64,000 nt of DNA from NCBI GenBank assembly GCA_002840835.1, contig PHCQ01000025.1, forward strand, positions 1-64,000, read 5' to 3'. The stretch's first letter is position 1, and every line of letters begins with the position of its first letter. This stretch comes from Betaproteobacteria bacterium HGW-Betaproteobacteria-16 (lineage in GTDB: Bacteria; Pseudomonadota; Gammaproteobacteria; Burkholderiales; Burkholderiaceae_C). The position numbers were made by a program, and so were the translations under genes. Shown piece after piece: positions 56,387-64,000 of this stretch. The notes below the pieces were generated by a model, which ran no database searches, was not told the DNA's origin, and saw only the letters and a program-made list of their open reading frames with translations.

Positions 56387-56881
56387 TCAGTGTTTGTGGC
56401 CCATGCCGGGTTTCATGTCGGCATCCGGCTTCATCGGCATGGCCTTGTTGCCGCCGCCCAGCGCGGTCACGGGTGCCTTGACTTCCTGTGTGAAGCGCTG
56501 CTTGGCGGCGTCTTCAAAGACCAGCGTGAGGGGCACGCTCTCGCCGCCCTTGAGCGGCTGCTTCAGGTCCATCAGCATCACGTGAAAACCGCCGGGCTTG
56601 AGCTCCGTGGTGCGGCCGGCCGCCAGGTCCAGACCCGGGATCTGGCGCATCTTCATGACGTCGTTTTCCATCGCCATTTCGTGGATTTCCACCACGCCGG
56701 CGACGGGCGATTCGACCGCCACCAGACGGGCGTTGGCCGAGGGGGTGAGGCGCATGAAGGCGCCCGAGGCCTTTTGCGTGGCCACGGTGCCGCGCACCCA
56801 GGCGTCTTCGACCTTGACGGTGGTTTGTGCCCAGGCACCGGCGGTGACGGCGAGCAACGAAGCGATAAGCAGTTTTTTCAT
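56387..56881 (-). CDS. PCuAC periplasmic copper chaperone (SCO-linked copy)
   Basis: 164 residues with a signal peptide (MKKLLIASLLAVTAGAWA) and an AGGAG ribosome site. The core carries the PCuAC motif with EIHEMAMENDVMKMR and GGFHVMLMDLKQPLKGGE. The C-terminus is Met- and His-rich (NKAMPMKPDADMKPGMGHKH), typical of chaperones that take up Cu(I) or Cu(II). It lies 42 bp downstream of a SCO gene, the usual partner in loading CuA. A second PCuAC is encoded at 54266. Confidence 0.93.
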   Translation of the reverse strand: MKKLLIASLLAVTAGAWAQTTVKVEDAWVRGTVATQKASGAFMRLTPSANARLVAVESPVAGVVEIHEMAMENDVMKMRQIPGLDLAAGRTTELKPGGFHVMLMDLKQPLKGGESVPLTLVFEDAAKQRFTQEVKAPVTALGGGNKAMPMKPDADMKPGMGHKH

Positions 56882-56923
56882 GGGAACTCCTGTTGAGAAA
56901 CGTTGAAAGAGGAAAAAGAAACT

Positions 56924-57583
56924 TCAGACCGGCTTTTCGGCCAGCAGCTGCCGGATGTCGGCCGTGTAGTCGTCGACCGTCTGTTCATGGCGCAAGGCCA
57001 CACGGAGTCGGCCTTCGCGGTCGAACAGGTAGCTCAGCGCGGTGTGGTCCATGGTGTAGGTGCTGCCGGTCGGGACCTTCTTGAAATAGACCCGGAATTC
57101 GTCGGCCGCAGCCCTGATCTGTTCAGGGCTGCCCGTGAGCGCCATGAACGAGGGATCGAAAGCCGCCATGTACTCGCGCAGCAGCTCGGGCGTGTCGCGC
57201 TCCGGGTCCACCGTGATGAAAATCACCTGCAGCTGCGCAGCGTCGGCGCCGAGCTGCTGCTTCACGGCAGCGGCCCGTGAGAGGGCCGTGGGGCACACAT
57301 CGGGACACTGCACGAAACCGAAATACAGCATCACCACCTGGCCGCGGTAGTCGGCCAGCGTACGTGGCTGGCCGTTGAAATCGGTCAGCGCGAACTGGCG
57401 CCCGTAGGTGGCGCCGGTGATGTCGATGCCCTTGAACACCGGGGCTCTCGCGCCTGGCGAAGTCTGGTCACAGCCCGCCAGCAGGCCACTGACGCCCAGG
57501 GCCAACCCGCCCAGCCACAAGGTGGCCGCACGGCGCAGGGGATCGGCGGGCACGCCCGCACAAGAAACTGGAAAACGAGGCAT
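56924..57583 (-). CDS. SCO1/SenC copper chaperone (copper operon copy)
   Basis: 219 residues. A lipobox-like GLLAGC near residue 38 follows a hydrophobic segment. The thioredoxin fold has CPDVC and the partner His in TYTMDHTALS. It resembles the SCO protein at 8748 but differs in the N-terminus and in the tail (DYTADIRQLLAEKPV). A GGGAGG ribosome site precedes the ATG at 57583. It sits between DUF2946 and PCuAC genes, so it probably handles copper under limitation, while the other copy serves the oxidase operon. Confidence 0.93.
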   Translation of the reverse strand: MPRFPVSCAGVPADPLRRAATLWLGGLALGVSGLLAGCDQTSPGARAPVFKGIDITGATYGRQFALTDFNGQPRTLADYRGQVVMLYFGFVQCPDVCPTALSRAAAVKQQLGADAAQLQVIFITVDPERDTPELLREYMAAFDPSFMALTGSPEQIRAAADEFRVYFKKVPTGSTYTMDHTALSYLFDREGRLRVALRHEQTVDDYTADIRQLLAEKPV

Positions 57584-58158: not shown

Positions 58159-58812
58159 ATGCTCAAGCTTTGTGGCTTCGCCGCCAGCAACTACTACAAC
58201 AAGGTCAAACTCGCCCTGCTCGAAAAAGGCGTGCCGTTTGAAGAAGAACTCGCCTGGGTCGGCGAAACCGACAAGACCGCCAGCCCGCTGGGCAAGGTGC
58301 CCTACCTCAAGACCGACGCCGGCCCGCTGTCGGAATCCACAGTGATCCTCGAGTACATCGAGGAAGCCTTCCCGCAGAACCCGCTGATGCCTGCCGACGC
58401 CTTTGCTGCGGCCAAGGTGCGCGAACTGGTGCGCTACCTGGAGTTGCACCTCGAACTGGTGGCTCGCAACCTGTACCCCGAAGCCTTCTTCGGCGGCAAG
58501 GTGAGCGACGCGGCCAAAGAAAAAGTGGGTCAGCAACTGGAGAAGAACATCGCCGCCTTCGCAACGCTGGCCCGGTTCTCGCCCTTCATCGCTGGCGACA
58601 GCTTCACCCTGGCCGACTGCGCCGCCGCCGTGCACCTGCCGCTGGTGAGCGGGGCCACCAAGATCATCTACGGCAAAGACTACCTGGCCGATCTGCCGGT
58701 GCGCGACTACCTGAAACGGCTGGGTGAGCGACCCACGGTGCAGCAGGTGAACGCCGACCGCAAGACCAACACCGAACTCATGCTGCAACGCGCCCGCGCC
58801 GCCAAGAGCTGA
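58159..58812 (+). CDS. glutathione S-transferase
   Basis: 217 residues starting at the ATG at 58159 (MLKLCGFAASNYYNKVKL) behind CGGAGA. An N-terminal thioredoxin-like domain holds the glutathione site (PLGKVPYLKTDAGPLSESTVILEYIEE) and a helical C-terminal domain follows. The short KLCGFAASNYYNK start may place Ser or Cys as the catalytic residue, as in beta- or zeta-like classes. It is divergent from the copper set and 24 bp upstream of the hydrolase-monooxygenase gene, so the two may be co-transcribed. Confidence 0.92.
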   Translation: MLKLCGFAASNYYNKVKLALLEKGVPFEEELAWVGETDKTASPLGKVPYLKTDAGPLSESTVILEYIEEAFPQNPLMPADAFAAAKVRELVRYLELHLELVARNLYPEAFFGGKVSDAAKEKVGQQLEKNIAAFATLARFSPFIAGDSFTLADCAAAVHLPLVSGATKIIYGKDYLADLPVRDYLKRLGERPTVQQVNADRKTNTELMLQRARAAKS

Positions 58813-58836: not shown

Positions 58837-61254
58837 ATGCCCTCGGCGCCTCACACCACCATTGCACCGCCGAAGGGCTGGGCGGAGGCCTTCATTGCCG
58901 GCTTGCTGCGCGCGACCCTGCGTACCTTGCTCAAGCCGGTGTTCTCGCCTCGCTGGTCCATCCCGTTCCAGCGGCGCTGGCTGGAAGGCCTGTCGCGCAT
59001 TGCGCTGGTGCCGCGCTCGGTGCGCGTCACGCCCGGCGAAGTGGCCGGTGTGCCCGGTGAATGGCTGCGCCATGGCGACGCACCGCCGGCCCGCGCAGGC
59101 CATGTGCTCTACCTGCATGGCGGCGCCTATTGCGTGGGCAGCGCGGCCACCCACCGGGCGCTCACGGCGCGGCTGGCGCAGACCACCGGCCTGCCCGTGT
59201 TCGCGGCGAACTACCGGCTGGCGCCTGAACACCCTTTTCCCGCCGCACTCGACGATGCGCTGGCGGCGTACCGCGCGTTGCGCGAGCGCGGCCCGGTGGT
59301 GGTGGGCGGCGATTCGGCCGGTGGCGGACTGAGCCTGTCGCTGACGCTGGCACTGCGCGAAGCGGGAGAACCCCTGCCCGATGGCTTGCTGCTGCTGTCT
59401 CCCCTGGCCGACATGGAGCCCGATCACATGCCCGAAGAGCCGCCGGGCGAGGCCATGTTGAGCGCGGCCTGGGCCGAGGCCTGCATGCGGCACTACCTGG
59501 GCGATGCGTCCAGCGCGCCTGACGCCAGACGCTGGATGACCTCGCCGCTGAAGGCCGATCTCCGCGGCCTGCCACCGACGTTGATCCAGGCCGGCACCGA
59601 CGAGATGTTGCACGACCAGGCATTGGCACTGCACGCCGCGCTGACGGCGGCAGGCGTGAGCAGCCGGTGCGAAATCACACCCGGTCGCTGGCATGTGTTC
59701 CAGTTGCACGGCGGCGCGCTGCGCAGTGCGGACGAGGCCATCGAGCGACTCGGGCGCTTCACGCGCGAGTCGCTGGACGAGGCCAACGCCAATGGGGCCG
59801 CCCCGCGCCACAGCGAGCACGAGGTGGTGATCATGGGCGGCGGCATGTCGGGTGTGTGCATGGGCATCCAGCTGCAGCGCGCCGGCATGCACGATTTCGT
59901 GATTCTTGAAAAACAGCCCGGCATGGGCGGCACCTGGTGGGACAACACCTACCCCGGGGCGCACGTGGATGTACCTTCGCCGGTGTATTCCTTTTCTTTC
60001 GCGCCCAATCCGGACTGGAGCCGCCGCTTTGCATCGGCCCAGGAAATCCAGGCCTATGTGCAAGGCCTGGCGGCGAAGCACCACCTGGGCGCTCGCACCC
60101 GCCTGGGTTCCCTACTGACCGAAGCGCGCTTTGACGAGGGCACCGGCCACTGGCACTTTCGCACTGCACGGGGCGACACGTTGCGATCGCGCTTCTTCGT
60201 GTGCAGCACCGGCCCGCTGAACCAGCCCCGCTGGCCCGACATTCCCGGGCTGGACCAGTTCACCGGTCAGCGCCTGCATTCGGCTCGCTGGGATCACGGC
60301 GTATCGCTGACAGGCCGACGTGTCGCGGTGATCGGCACCGGCTCCACCGCTTCACAACTGGTGGCGCCCATTGCGGCGCAGGCGGCTCGGCTGCTGGTGT
60401 TCCAGCGCACGGCCAACTGGGTGCTGCCCCGGCTGGATCGCCCGTACAACGCGCTGGACCACCTGCTCGCCCGCTTCCCGCCTTACGCGGCTGCCGTGCG
60501 ATGGACCTGGACGCAGGTGCTGGAATGGGGCCGACGTGGCTTTGACGAAGGTACCGTGGCGCGCAAAGGCATGCTGCGAACGGCACGCCACCAACTTGAG
60601 CACCAGGTGCCCGACCCCACCTTGCGCCATCAGCTCGTGCCTACCTATCCGCTGGGCTGCAAACGCATCATCTATTCCAATGACTTCTATCCGGCGCTGG
60701 GCGAGCCGCACGTCACCCTGGTCACGGCAGGCATCGAACGCGTCACGCCCCACGGCATTCGCACGGTGGATGGTGAAGAGCACCCAGTTGACGTGCTGGT
60801 GTGTGCCACCGGCTTCGACACGGTGCGCTTGCTGTCGTCGGTCGAAGTCACCGGGCTGGCTGGGCGAACACTGCGCGAAGCCTGGGCCCAGGGGCCGGAG
60901 GCTTACCATGGCGTGACCGTGGCGGGCTTTCCCAACATGTTCCTCATGCTCGGACCCAACACCGGCACCGGCCACACTTCCACCCTGCTGTTCATCGAAC
61001 CCGAAGTGCAACACGCGATTGCCTGCATGCAGCGGGTGAAAAAGCTAGGTTCACGCTGGATCGATGTGCGGGCCGACGTGATGGCCACGCACAACCAGCA
61101 GCTGCAGCGACGGTTGGCGGGTTCTGTGTGGACCCATTGCCGCAGCTGGTACCGCATGGAAGGCGGGCGTGTGGTGGCGCTGTTTCCGGGGTTCACGGCG
61201 GAATACGTGCGCGCGGTGCGCCAACCCGCCGAACAGGACTACACCCTGGGTTGA
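58837..61254 (+). CDS. fusion protein: alpha/beta hydrolase + Baeyer-Villiger-type flavin monooxygenase
   Basis: 805 residues in one open frame. Residues 1 to about 315 form an HSL-type alpha/beta hydrolase: oxyanion HGG (94-96), nucleophile S160 in GDSAGG, D255 (GTDEM) and H286 (RWHVFQ). From about 325 on is a class B flavin monooxygenase: FAD loop GGGMSG (334-339), GGTWWDNTYPG, the exact type I BVMO fingerprint FTGQRLHSARWD (475-486) and the NADPH loop GTGSTAS (500-506). BVMO enzymes turn ketones into esters or lactones that the hydrolase half could cleave. The substrate is unknown. The single intact frame argues against a sequencing join. Confidence 0.92.
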   Translation: MPSAPHTTIAPPKGWAEAFIAGLLRATLRTLLKPVFSPRWSIPFQRRWLEGLSRIALVPRSVRVTPGEVAGVPGEWLRHGDAPPARAGHVLYLHGGAYCVGSAATHRALTARLAQTTGLPVFAANYRLAPEHPFPAALDDALAAYRALRERGPVVVGGDSAGGGLSLSLTLALREAGEPLPDGLLLLSPLADMEPDHMPEEPPGEAMLSAAWAEACMRHYLGDASSAPDARRWMTSPLKADLRGLPPTLIQAGTDEMLHDQALALHAALTAAGVSSRCEITPGRWHVFQLHGGALRSADEAIERLGRFTRESLDEANANGAAPRHSEHEVVIMGGGMSGVCMGIQLQRAGMHDFVILEKQPGMGGTWWDNTYPGAHVDVPSPVYSFSFAPNPDWSRRFASAQEIQAYVQGLAAKHHLGARTRLGSLLTEARFDEGTGHWHFRTARGDTLRSRFFVCSTGPLNQPRWPDIPGLDQFTGQRLHSARWDHGVSLTGRRVAVIGTGSTASQLVAPIAAQAARLLVFQRTANWVLPRLDRPYNALDHLLARFPPYAAAVRWTWTQVLEWGRRGFDEGTVARKGMLRTARHQLEHQVPDPTLRHQLVPTYPLGCKRIIYSNDFYPALGEPHVTLVTAGIERVTPHGIRTVDGEEHPVDVLVCATGFDTVRLLSSVEVTGLAGRTLREAWAQGPEAYHGVTVAGFPNMFLMLGPNTGTGHTSTLLFIEPEVQHAIACMQRVKKLGSRWIDVRADVMATHNQQLQRRLAGSVWTHCRSWYRMEGGRVVALFPGFTAEYVRAVRQPAEQDYTLG

Positions 61255-61267
61255 CCAGCCCTTGCCG

Positions 61268-63436
61268 CTACCTCACCAGCTCTAAGCCGACGAAGATGGA
61301 GCGGCCCGCGCCCGGCTCATAAAAGCGCCCGTTGCCTTCATTGACGATGACCGAACCCACATGCTTGCGGTCGGTGAGGTTGTCGATGCGCACGAACTCG
61401 CGCCATGTCCAGTCACCCCGCTTCTGCTCAAAGCGCACGCCCAGGTTGAACAAGGTGCTGGCGCCAGCGAATTCGGTGTTGCGGTCGTTCACCGCCATGC
61501 GGCCGGTGTGGCGCGCGTCCAGCGTGACCGTGCTGCCGGCCCAGCCGGTGTCCCACAGCACCTGCACCGCCGCCTGGTGTTTCGAGAGCCCGGGCATCCG
61601 GTTGCCTGCGGCCACGGGCAACGTGGGCGCCAGGCATGGCGTGCCCGCGCAGGCCAGGAAGCCGTCGCGGTAGCGCGCGTCCAGCCAGGTGTAGGCCGGG
61701 CTGATGACCAGCGGCCCCCAGGCGAAATCGGCCGCGAGCTCCAGACCATGCCGGCGTGTGCGGCCGGCGTTCTGGAAGGTGGACCGGCCGCCGCTGTTGC
61801 TCAGCACCACGATTTCGTCTTCGGTGCGGGTGTCGAACAAGGTGGCACTCCAGGAGCCCCAGCCATGGCGGCCGCGCAGGCCCGCTTCCGCGCTGCGGCT
61901 GGTGGCAGCCGACAGGTTCTGGTTCAGCCCGGTCAGGCCCGACGGCCGGTACGCCACTTCATTGAGCGTGGGCGTTTCCAGCCCTCGACCGAAGCTGGCA
62001 AAGGCCTGCACCTGGTCAGAGAGCGCATGTCGCACCCCAAGCACCGGGCTGGTGCCGCTGAAACGCACGGAGCCGCTGTCGTCCGGGTTGCCGGGGCGGA
62101 TGTAGCGGTCGCTGGATTCGAAGCGCACGCGCGAGTGCCGCAATCCGGCGGTGAGGGTCCAGTCCGGGGTGGCCCATTCGGCCTGGGCATAGGGGTCGAG
62201 TGTGCTGGCGCGGTTGGTTTCGTCCCGGCGCAGACGCCCCTGCACACCCAGCGTGCTGCCGACGAAATTCTCAAACCCCAGCCGGTCTTCGCTCTGTCGG
62301 TCGCCCGCCAGACCAGCTGTGACGGTGAGCTGGCCACCGCCGTAATTCCGGTCGAGCCGCCAACGCGCGTTCCAGCCGCTGTAGTCGCGGTCGAGGTCGA
62401 TCAGGCCGCCAGCGCTGCCAGGCGGTATCTGCGCGCCGGTGGGCACGGCCAGAAACTGGCGCACCGCACGCTGACCGGTGTAGCCCATGAGTTCGACGCG
62501 GTGCCCCCCGCCCAGCGCCTGCTCCCATGCCAGGCCGAACTGGCTTTGCGACACGCTCTTGCGGGTGTTGAAGTTGATGGCCGCCGCGTTGGTCTGTTGC
62601 GGGTCTTCATCGAACTCGGCGCGGGTCAGGCCCAGCGGGTCCAGCGCCTGGCTTGTCTGGCGGTTGAACACCAGCGTGGTGCGGCCGCCTTCGTGCGCGC
62701 GGCTGAGCTTGAGGTTGCCGGTGCTGCGCGACGCGGCCGACTGCGCACGCGCGCCATCGGTTTCGAAGGTGCTGCCGTCCAGCGTGTACGACCAGCCGCG
62801 CTCGCCCTCCTTGCCGGTCTGACCGGTGAGCTGGCTGGAAAAGCGCCACAGGCCATCGGACCCTGCCGCCAAGCCGGTGCGCCACTCGCCGGGTCGTTGA
62901 CCGTCCTGCGTGTAGAGCGCGATCACGCCGCCGGCCGACGCGCCGTACAACGCCGAATACGGCCCCCGCACGATCTCGATGCGGTCGGCACTGCCAATGG
63001 GAAAATTCGCCGCCTGGCCCTGCCCGTCTGGCGCACTGGCCGGAATGCCATCGACGAACAGGCGCACACCCCGCACGCCGAAGGGTGATCGCGCGCCAAA
63101 GCCGCGCACCGAAATCTGCAGATCCTGCGCGTAGTTCTGGCGGTTGCGCACCACCAGCCCCGGCACCCGGCCCAAGCCTTCAGACAGGTTGATCTGCAAC
63201 TGGCCGGCCCGCAGTTCCTCGCCATCGACCACGTCCACCGATCCCGGCGAGCGCCAGCGTTCCTCGAAGCTGCCCTGCCCGGTGATGACCACCGGCGCGA
63301 GGGCGCCGGCGGTGTCACTGTTGTCGATGGAGGACTGGGCGTGTAGCGCCGTGGCACTCACGCACAGGCCACAGGCCACGGCCAGTCCATGAGGGCGCGG
63401 GATCAAAAACGGACTACTTCTTTGGCCGAATGGCAT
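61268..63436 (-). CDS. TonB-dependent outer-membrane receptor
   Basis: 722 residues starting at the ATG at 63436 (MPFGQRSSPFLIPRPHG), with a signal peptide ending near LHAQSS. The plug shows ELRAGQLQINLSEGLGRVPGLV, RGFGARSPFGVRGVRLFVDGIPA and IVRGPYSALYGASAGG, and a 22-strand barrel follows, ending LGVRFEQ and SIFVGLELVR. It belongs to the general receptor group rather than the siderophore group. Its start overlaps the end of the dehydrogenase gene by 23 bp, so both are probably one transcript. Ligand unknown; import of the dehydrogenase's substrate or its metal or cofactor is possible. Confidence 0.9.
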   Translation of the reverse strand: MPFGQRSSPFLIPRPHGLAVACGLCVSATALHAQSSIDNSDTAGALAPVVITGQGSFEERWRSPGSVDVVDGEELRAGQLQINLSEGLGRVPGLVVRNRQNYAQDLQISVRGFGARSPFGVRGVRLFVDGIPASAPDGQGQAANFPIGSADRIEIVRGPYSALYGASAGGVIALYTQDGQRPGEWRTGLAAGSDGLWRFSSQLTGQTGKEGERGWSYTLDGSTFETDGARAQSAASRSTGNLKLSRAHEGGRTTLVFNRQTSQALDPLGLTRAEFDEDPQQTNAAAINFNTRKSVSQSQFGLAWEQALGGGHRVELMGYTGQRAVRQFLAVPTGAQIPPGSAGGLIDLDRDYSGWNARWRLDRNYGGGQLTVTAGLAGDRQSEDRLGFENFVGSTLGVQGRLRRDETNRASTLDPYAQAEWATPDWTLTAGLRHSRVRFESSDRYIRPGNPDDSGSVRFSGTSPVLGVRHALSDQVQAFASFGRGLETPTLNEVAYRPSGLTGLNQNLSAATSRSAEAGLRGRHGWGSWSATLFDTRTEDEIVVLSNSGGRSTFQNAGRTRRHGLELAADFAWGPLVISPAYTWLDARYRDGFLACAGTPCLAPTLPVAAGNRMPGLSKHQAAVQVLWDTGWAGSTVTLDARHTGRMAVNDRNTEFAGASTLFNLGVRFEQKRGDWTWREFVRIDNLTDRKHVGSVIVNEGNGRFYEPGAGRSIFVGLELVR

Positions 63437-64000
63437 CGGCCGTACCCTGAATGAAAGCTTTGATTTTCTGGACGTCATCGTTGCTGAGTTTTCCGGTGAA
63501 GTCAGGCATGCCACGCTCGGTAGCCGGGCCCTTGAAGACAAACTTGTCGAGGTTCTGGATGAATGAAGTGTCCATGTATCCGAGGTTGGGAATGTTGCCT
63601 CCCCGGTCCACGCCCGGCACGCCGTGGCAGAACACGCAGTTGCTCACATACAGCGCGGTGCCGGCCGGCACATGCGCCGGGTCGTATTTCACGCCCTCCA
63701 CCAGTTTGCCCAGCTGGTAGGCCACGTGCGCCGGTGGCTGCGCATTGCCCCCCACTGCAAAGGTGTACACCGTGCCGGGGCCCGTGCGATCGGTGGCACG
63801 CTGGGCCAGGCCGTACACGCCGCCCCAGCCCACCGCGATGGACACGTACTGCTTGCCGTCGACCAGGTAGGTGGAAGGAGCGGCGATCACACCGGTGCCG
63901 GTGGGTGCTTCCCACAGCTGCTCGCCGGTGGTGGCGTTGTAGGCGATGAAGCGCCCGTCGGCCGTACCCTGGAACACCAGGTTGCCGGCGGTGGTGAGCG
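63414..64000 (-). CDS. PQQ-dependent quinohemoprotein alcohol dehydrogenase, C-terminal part (start beyond the window)
   Basis: About 195 codons are visible and the frame is open to the window edge. The last blades of the PQQ propeller domain (LVFQGTADGRFIAYNATTGEQLWEAPTGTGV) are followed by a cytochrome c domain with heme motif CVFCH and GPATERGMPDFTGKL with its Met ligand. This is the layout of type II quinohemoprotein alcohol dehydrogenases, periplasmic enzymes that oxidise alcohols and pass electrons to the respiratory chain. The Ca- or lanthanide-binding region is outside the window. Its 3' end overlaps the TonB receptor gene. Confidence 0.93.
   Translation of the reverse strand, partial: LTTAGNLVFQGTADGRFIAYNATTGEQLWEAPTGTGVIAAPSTYLVDGKQYVSIAVGWGGVYGLAQRATDRTGPGTVYTFAVGGNAQPPAHVAYQLGKLVEGVKYDPAHVPAGTALYVSNCVFCHGVPGVDRGGNIPNLGYMDTSFIQNLDKFVFKGPATERGMPDFTGKLSNDDVQKIKAFIQGTADAIRPKK

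Follow-up and report, generated by a model that had tools for sequence, protein, structure and literature searches.

A single-chain protein joining an HSL-type hydrolase to a Baeyer-Villiger monooxygenase, a candidate bifunctional enzyme of ketone catabolism

The window, a 64,000-nucleotide stretch of contig PHCQ01000025.1 of Betaproteobacteria bacterium HGW-Betaproteobacteria-16, was found to carry a gene in which an HSL-type alpha/beta-hydrolase is followed in the same chain by a type I Baeyer-Villiger monooxygenase (BVMO), with a glutathione S-transferase (GST) gene upstream (Table 1). The fusion gene starts with ATG, has zero internal stops and is surrounded by an open frame of 813 codons. 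The single 805-codon frame claimed by the initial annotation was borne out, as the plus strand is uninterrupted from 58837 to 61254.

Table 1. Coordinates (window positions) of the fusion gene, its features and the adjoining GST gene.
Feature	Position	Strand	Basis or remark
GST gene	58159..58812	+	start chosen by eye; 24 bp upstream of fusion
Hydrolase-BVMO fusion gene	58837..61254	+	single frame, 805 aa plus stop
HSL-type alpha/beta-hydrolase half, residues 1-312	58837..59772	+	Abhydrolase_3 90-289; EstD11/EstE5 fold, model residues 12-315
HGG oxyanion loop, residues 94-96	59116..59124	+	invariant in 22/22 rows
Catalytic Ser160 in GDSAGG	59314..59316	+	invariant in 22/22 rows
Catalytic Asp255	59599..59601	+	invariant in alignment
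Catalytic His286	59692..59694	+	invariant in alignment
Short linker, residues 313-325	59773..59811	+	secondary structure of model; alignment
Type I BVMO half, residues 326-805	59812..61251	+	Pfam, PDB sequence matches, fold comparison
BVMO1 motif GGTWWDNTYPGAHVD, residues 364-378, D378 = PAMO D66	59926..59970	+	PAMO alignment; 22/22 rows
BVMO2 fingerprint FTGQRLHSARWD, residues 475-486	60259..60294	+	22/22 rows
Arg610 = PAMO R337, K609 = K336 directly before	60664..60666	+	PAMO alignment; invariant

The N-terminal half was assigned by its Pfam Abhydrolase_3 match (E 1.8e-53; 181.9 bits compared to a gathering score of 25) and by a PDB sequence search, in which residues 37-312 matched EstD11-type HSL esterases. 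The HGG motif, GDSAG nucleophile, Asp and His that mark HSL/Abhydrolase_3 esterases were all present, and the triad (S160, D255 and H286) and HGG oxyanion loop named by the initial annotation were right, with the loop at H94-G95-G96 and S160 within GDSAGG. The score against the NCBIfam model of GESAG-motif HSL proteins (193.6 bits) was below the curated cut-off of 430.

For the C-terminal half, Pfam detected FMO-like (residues 383-535, E 1.8e-12) and Pyr_redox_3 (331-528) domains, and residues 326-538 and 581-727 matched phenylacetone monooxygenase (PAMO) by PDB sequence search, with cyclohexanone monooxygenase (CHMO) and steroid monooxygenase similar. The fingerprint FxGxxxHxxxW[P/D] is present as F475xG477xxxH481xxxW485D486, in agreement with the initial annotation, which had placed an FxGxxxHxxxW-D motif here. 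The BVMO1 pattern, [A/G]GxWxxxx[F/Y]P[G/M]xxxD, is likewise satisfied at residues 364-378. Residues D378, R524, K609 and R610 align with D66, R217, K336 and R337 of PAMO. Both of the Rossmann loops that had been claimed exist and flank these motifs; the first is GxGxxG (334-339), but the second (500-505) is GxGxxA, one letter off that consensus. The NCBIfam model for the neopentalenolactone D synthase PtlE gave 212 bits, below its curated cut-off of 1100.

An AlphaFold2 model of the 805-residue chain, built from a 42-row alignment, had a pLDDT of 90.4 and a pTM of 0.90, and the fusion is confidently predicted to adopt a two-domain fold. By VIA-align, residues 12-315 superimposed on EstD11/EstE5 with Z about 41 and an rmsd of 1.8-2.1. 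For residues 324-805 the match was to PAMO/CHMO, with about 475 residues aligned at an rmsd of 2.3 and Z about 40-41; BVMOs were also top-ranked by Foldseek. In the model, the hydrolase ends in a long helix (296-318), and residue 325 already opens the first Rossmann strand. The linker is therefore very short, consisting of the tail of this helix and a few residues before the strand.

The claim that the frame yields one protein was examined with respect to internal start and frameshift, and neither was supported. A codon scan detected no ATG, GTG or TTG codon between residues 296 and 329; the first candidates after residue 296 are V330, V331 and M333, and an internal translation start is unlikely since these lie within the first Rossmann strand. 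A frameshift or assembly artefact was ruled out by single matches that span both halves in eight same-genus genomes (own included); in two of the seven others, G005 and G007, this match lies on a single contig. The fusion is also present in public records that carry no MAG label, those of Arenimonas metalli (L059) and Methyloversatilis sp. XJ19-49 (L053). Judged from the sequences of its relatives, the fusion is real and old and no assembly artefact. Plasmid carriage had no support, as 0 of the 274 plasmid records with a match contained at least 80% of the query in one place.

A homology search for this exact domain order, as suggested in the initial annotation, recovered intact relatives in the same genus, Methyloversatilis and Arenimonas at 60-89% identity. 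Among 60 related genomes, the match ran through both halves in eight, the window's own included (G000, G019, G018, G007, G005, G017, G010 and G023), and was cut in G020 and in G006 (in the latter across two contigs); all fusion-bearing genomes of this set belong to its 36 same-genus genomes. At L144 (G004:C159) the fusion gene is in pieces in different frames, representing either a broken gene or an assembly error. Eleven rows of the window's fusion type were detected in 299 genomes of the family at E <=1e-100 (G489, G000, G431, G528, G395, G340, G298, G357 and G478, with G600 and G382 incomplete), together with a fusion of a third kind (G617) described below. Among the 300 genomes of the order (E <=1e-35), G000 and G298 had full-length matches and G244 a fusion of the third kind. 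At E <=1e-100, a match through both halves was found only in G000 among 369 genomes of the class and only in G000 and G298 among 398 genomes of the phylum. Within the best 79 of 104 candidate loci from a named genome collection, the top 15 rows (L047-L061) were all fusions, from Hydrogenophaga (2), Methyloversatilis (3), Arenimonas (3) and Burkholderiales/Pseudomonadota MAGs (7). The closest of these was a Hydrogenophaga MAG, 89% identical, and the window thus probably derives from Hydrogenophaga or a near neighbour of it.

Conservation was assessed across 22 aligned rows; besides the window these comprise 21 sequences 60-89% identical to it, some of them near-copies of one another. All 22 keep the triad, oxyanion, BVMO1, BVMO2 and CKR residues. 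Nei-Gojobori dN/dS was 0.115 for the hydrolase and 0.094 for the BVMO when compared to the 89% relative (L060). Five other pairs gave 0.19-0.50 and 0.17-0.28, respectively, the most distant (Arenimonas L059) having 0.50 and 0.28; these five estimates are rough, as dS was 0.7-1.2. Both halves were shown by these comparisons of coding sequence to be under constraint.

To place the fusion among its relatives, 212 loci chosen by match to the query were classified, with duplicates included and L001-L011 and L136-L144 set aside. Hydrolase-BVMO fusions accounted for 28 of the loci and fusions in the reversed order, BVMO-hydrolase, for seven (L127:4742-7213 in G038, L163, L170, L171, L172, L173 and L193). 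Unfused same-strand neighbours within 1.3 kb were found as BVMO then hydrolase at 37 loci and as hydrolase then BVMO at five; at the Williamsia loci about 1 kb separates BVMO and hydrolase. Seven loci had no BVMO. At 128 a BVMO stood without detected hydrolase; this figure is too high, since many flanks spanned just 1.5 kb and at L145 and L146, both scored as alone, the BVMO does have an annotated hydrolase gene as neighbour. In G022 a 941-aa open frame had hinted at a fusion but proved to be two neighbouring frames (L126).

The hydrolase-first fusions other than L128 formed one 22-row clade in both the BVMO tree (SH-aLRT 100) and the hydrolase tree (support 100/96), the former being a quick tree of 98 of 185 rows in which 45 of 132 unfused rows were drawn at random, without L158 and L159. 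In both trees the seven BVMO-first fusions clustered with the adjacent-gene locus L175, apart from the window's clade. The third kind, L128:3121-6807 (G244) and L236:1826-5137 (G617), combines the same hydrolase family with a distant BVMO subtype that is 27-28% identical; L128, the one of the two included in the trees, is a very long branch. On the simplest reading, hydrolase and BVMO would have been joined at least three separate times, once in the opposite order. That the same two kinds of enzyme were apparently joined several times suggests teamwork between them.

Two BVMO-only relatives, L158/G573 (L238) and L159/G362 (L237), are 63-66% identical to the BVMO half and nested within the fusion clade. 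No hydrolase was detected in their fetched flanks, and no close stand-alone hydrolase in either genome (best 39-40% identity; G573 is 79% complete). The nearest outgroup rows, L020 and L021, also had no hydrolase in 16-kb stretches. A constraint tree with the 22 hydrolase-first fusions as a clade excluding both BVMO-only rows cost 18.3 log units with a p-AU of 0.074. As a clean fusion clade is not rejected at 0.05, loss of the hydrolase half by these two relatives is likely, not proven; as they have no hydrolase in the fetched flanks and no close stand-alone one, the pairing is not obligatory.

The GST gene was found beside six of 23 distinct other fusion loci (L047/L143, L060, L136, L137, L138 and L144) and was absent beside the remaining 17 (L048-L059, L061 and L139-L142). 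GST is thus probably no necessary part of the fusion locus, and the detoxification setting that the initial annotation had drawn from it did not hold up, this neighbour being lineage-limited. Adjoining the GST-fusion pair on the minus strand (56387-57583) are copper-chaperone genes of the SCO1/SenC and PCu(A)C types, side by side; the latter recurs at L060, L136, L137, L138, L140 and L144. Downstream on the opposite strand are a TonB-dependent receptor and a PQQ alcohol dehydrogenase that carries a cytochrome domain (window 61268-64000; L260:2418-4547, minus strand), which are possibly related metabolically to the fusion. Among the loci listed for the window's fusion clade, the other neighbours vary by lineage, name no substrate and appear by eye to be in many cases housekeeping-like.

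Neighbours of the other arrangements were examined as well. At the unfused locus L251 an AraC-type regulator is divergent from BVMO, hydrolase and SDR genes (regulator, hydrolase and SDR Pfam-tested), and L253 appears to follow this order, its regulator being identified by eye. At L252 and L255 an SDR follows the BVMO-hydrolase pair, the hydrolases having been detected as L211 and L183. Beside the BVMO-first fusions were an AraC-type regulator (L246), an SDR (L245) and a GMC oxidoreductase (L247, and by eye L248); no such regulator, SDR or GMC oxidoreductase was found by matches and by eye at the fused loci L249 and L250.

Each half resembles known enzymes. The BVMO half has a fold in common (residues 324-805) with PAMO (1w4x), Thermocrispum CHMO (5m0z) and steroid monooxygenase (4aos), and has both signatures, the catalytic Asp and Arg and, by the PAMO alignment, the NADPH-site Arg524 and Lys609. 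It differs in its length (about 480 compared to about 540 residues), in identity (about 31-32%) and in the hydrolase fused in front. Residues 12-315 similarly have the fold, HGG, GDSAG, Asp and His of the HSL esterases EstD11 (7at0), EstE5 (3fak) and Aes72 (9izt) at 33-41% identity; these three stand alone, whereas the hydrolase of the window is tethered to a BVMO. By description, the mycobacterial BVMOs MymA and EthA are comparable but unfused. The HSL-like LipR is presumably encoded in the mymA operon, which would bring a BVMO and an HSL-like gene together as in the fusion. MymA, EthA and Rv0565c are reported to prefer linear substrates (PMC9044951). Also by description (PMC12753306), the BVMO SadD and esterases SadA/SadB and the secondary-alcohol pathway of Pseudomonas fluorescens DSM 50106 carry out the two reactions in series, with separate proteins, unlike the fusion. 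A Caballeronia plasmid operon considered as an unfused model was rejected, as its alpha/beta hydrolase had no match to the hydrolase half at E 1e-4; this operon is a functional parallel only.

According to PMC6304351, PMC12753306 and PMC4192553, a BVMO converts a ketone to an ester that an esterase cleaves to alcohol and acid, and this sequence of ketone, ester, and acid plus alcohol lies at the heart of the subterminal oxidation of alkanes and 2-ketones. We consider it probable (roughly 0.75) that the fusion is a bifunctional catabolic enzyme carrying out both steps in one chain, with both halves active, the BVMO acting first and the hydrolase on the same molecule. The C-terminal flavin half would use FAD, NADPH and O2 to insert oxygen beside the ketone carbonyl, giving an ester or lactone, and the N-terminal serine-hydrolase half would open this product to a carboxylic acid and an alcohol. 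The natural substrate may be a ketone, linear or cyclic, that arises in the breakdown of secondary alcohols or alkane-type compounds. Fusion would set a 1:1 dose of the two activities and hold the hydrolase near the site of ester formation. The functional coupling proposed in the initial annotation is supported by the fusions in both orders, the neighbouring unfused genes and the nearby alcohol-oxidoreductase-type genes. A stronger version, in which the two active sites are held in fixed mutual position and the ester passes directly from flavin to serine site with little bulk ester, this arrangement having arisen on three or more occasions and with either domain first, is doubtful; tethering alone is no proof of the channelling of a toxic ester inferred in the initial annotation, and in two close relatives the hydrolase half is absent.

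BVMOs and HSL esterases are frequently promiscuous. This general promiscuity, together with the same-strand GST 24 bp upstream that is kept at six of 23 other fusion loci, would fit a general detoxification protein whose halves act on different molecules, a carboxylesterase and a BVMO, each of broad specificity, being co-made alongside GST. We regard this as unlikely, as GST is missing at 17 of the 23 loci, and the both-order fusions and BVMO-hydrolase-SDR clusters suggest a single pathway. It is more improbable still that the hydrolase acts first, opening an acylated precursor to free a keto compound for oxidation by the BVMO. Reaction order cannot be read from sequence, and the hydrolase is N-terminal here and upstream in the five unfused loci; other fusions, however, reverse the domain order, which is uninformative on reaction order, and the BVMO-esterase pathways described in PMC6304351, PMC12753306 and PMC4192553 start with the BVMO. 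Least probable of all is that one half is no longer catalytic and has turned into a structural or regulatory appendage: the hydrolase half does evolve more rapidly between the most distant sequences compared, and two relatives lack it, but triad and flavin-site residues are invariant in 22 of 22 rows.

For the preferred reading, a BVMO and a hydrolase acting in series in one chain, neither enzyme family is new and the two-step chemistry is established; what appears new here is the natural tethering. Among the papers listed from openly licensed PMC, none dealt with a natural fusion of BVMO and hydrolase, whichever came first, though such a negative carries little weight. For biocatalysis, cascades of a BVMO with esterases or dehydrogenases are put together artificially. 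Nature supplies ready-made BVMO-esterase fusions in both orders, alongside relatives that are unfused or appear to have lost one half and can serve as controls, and the gain from tethering is thus directly testable.
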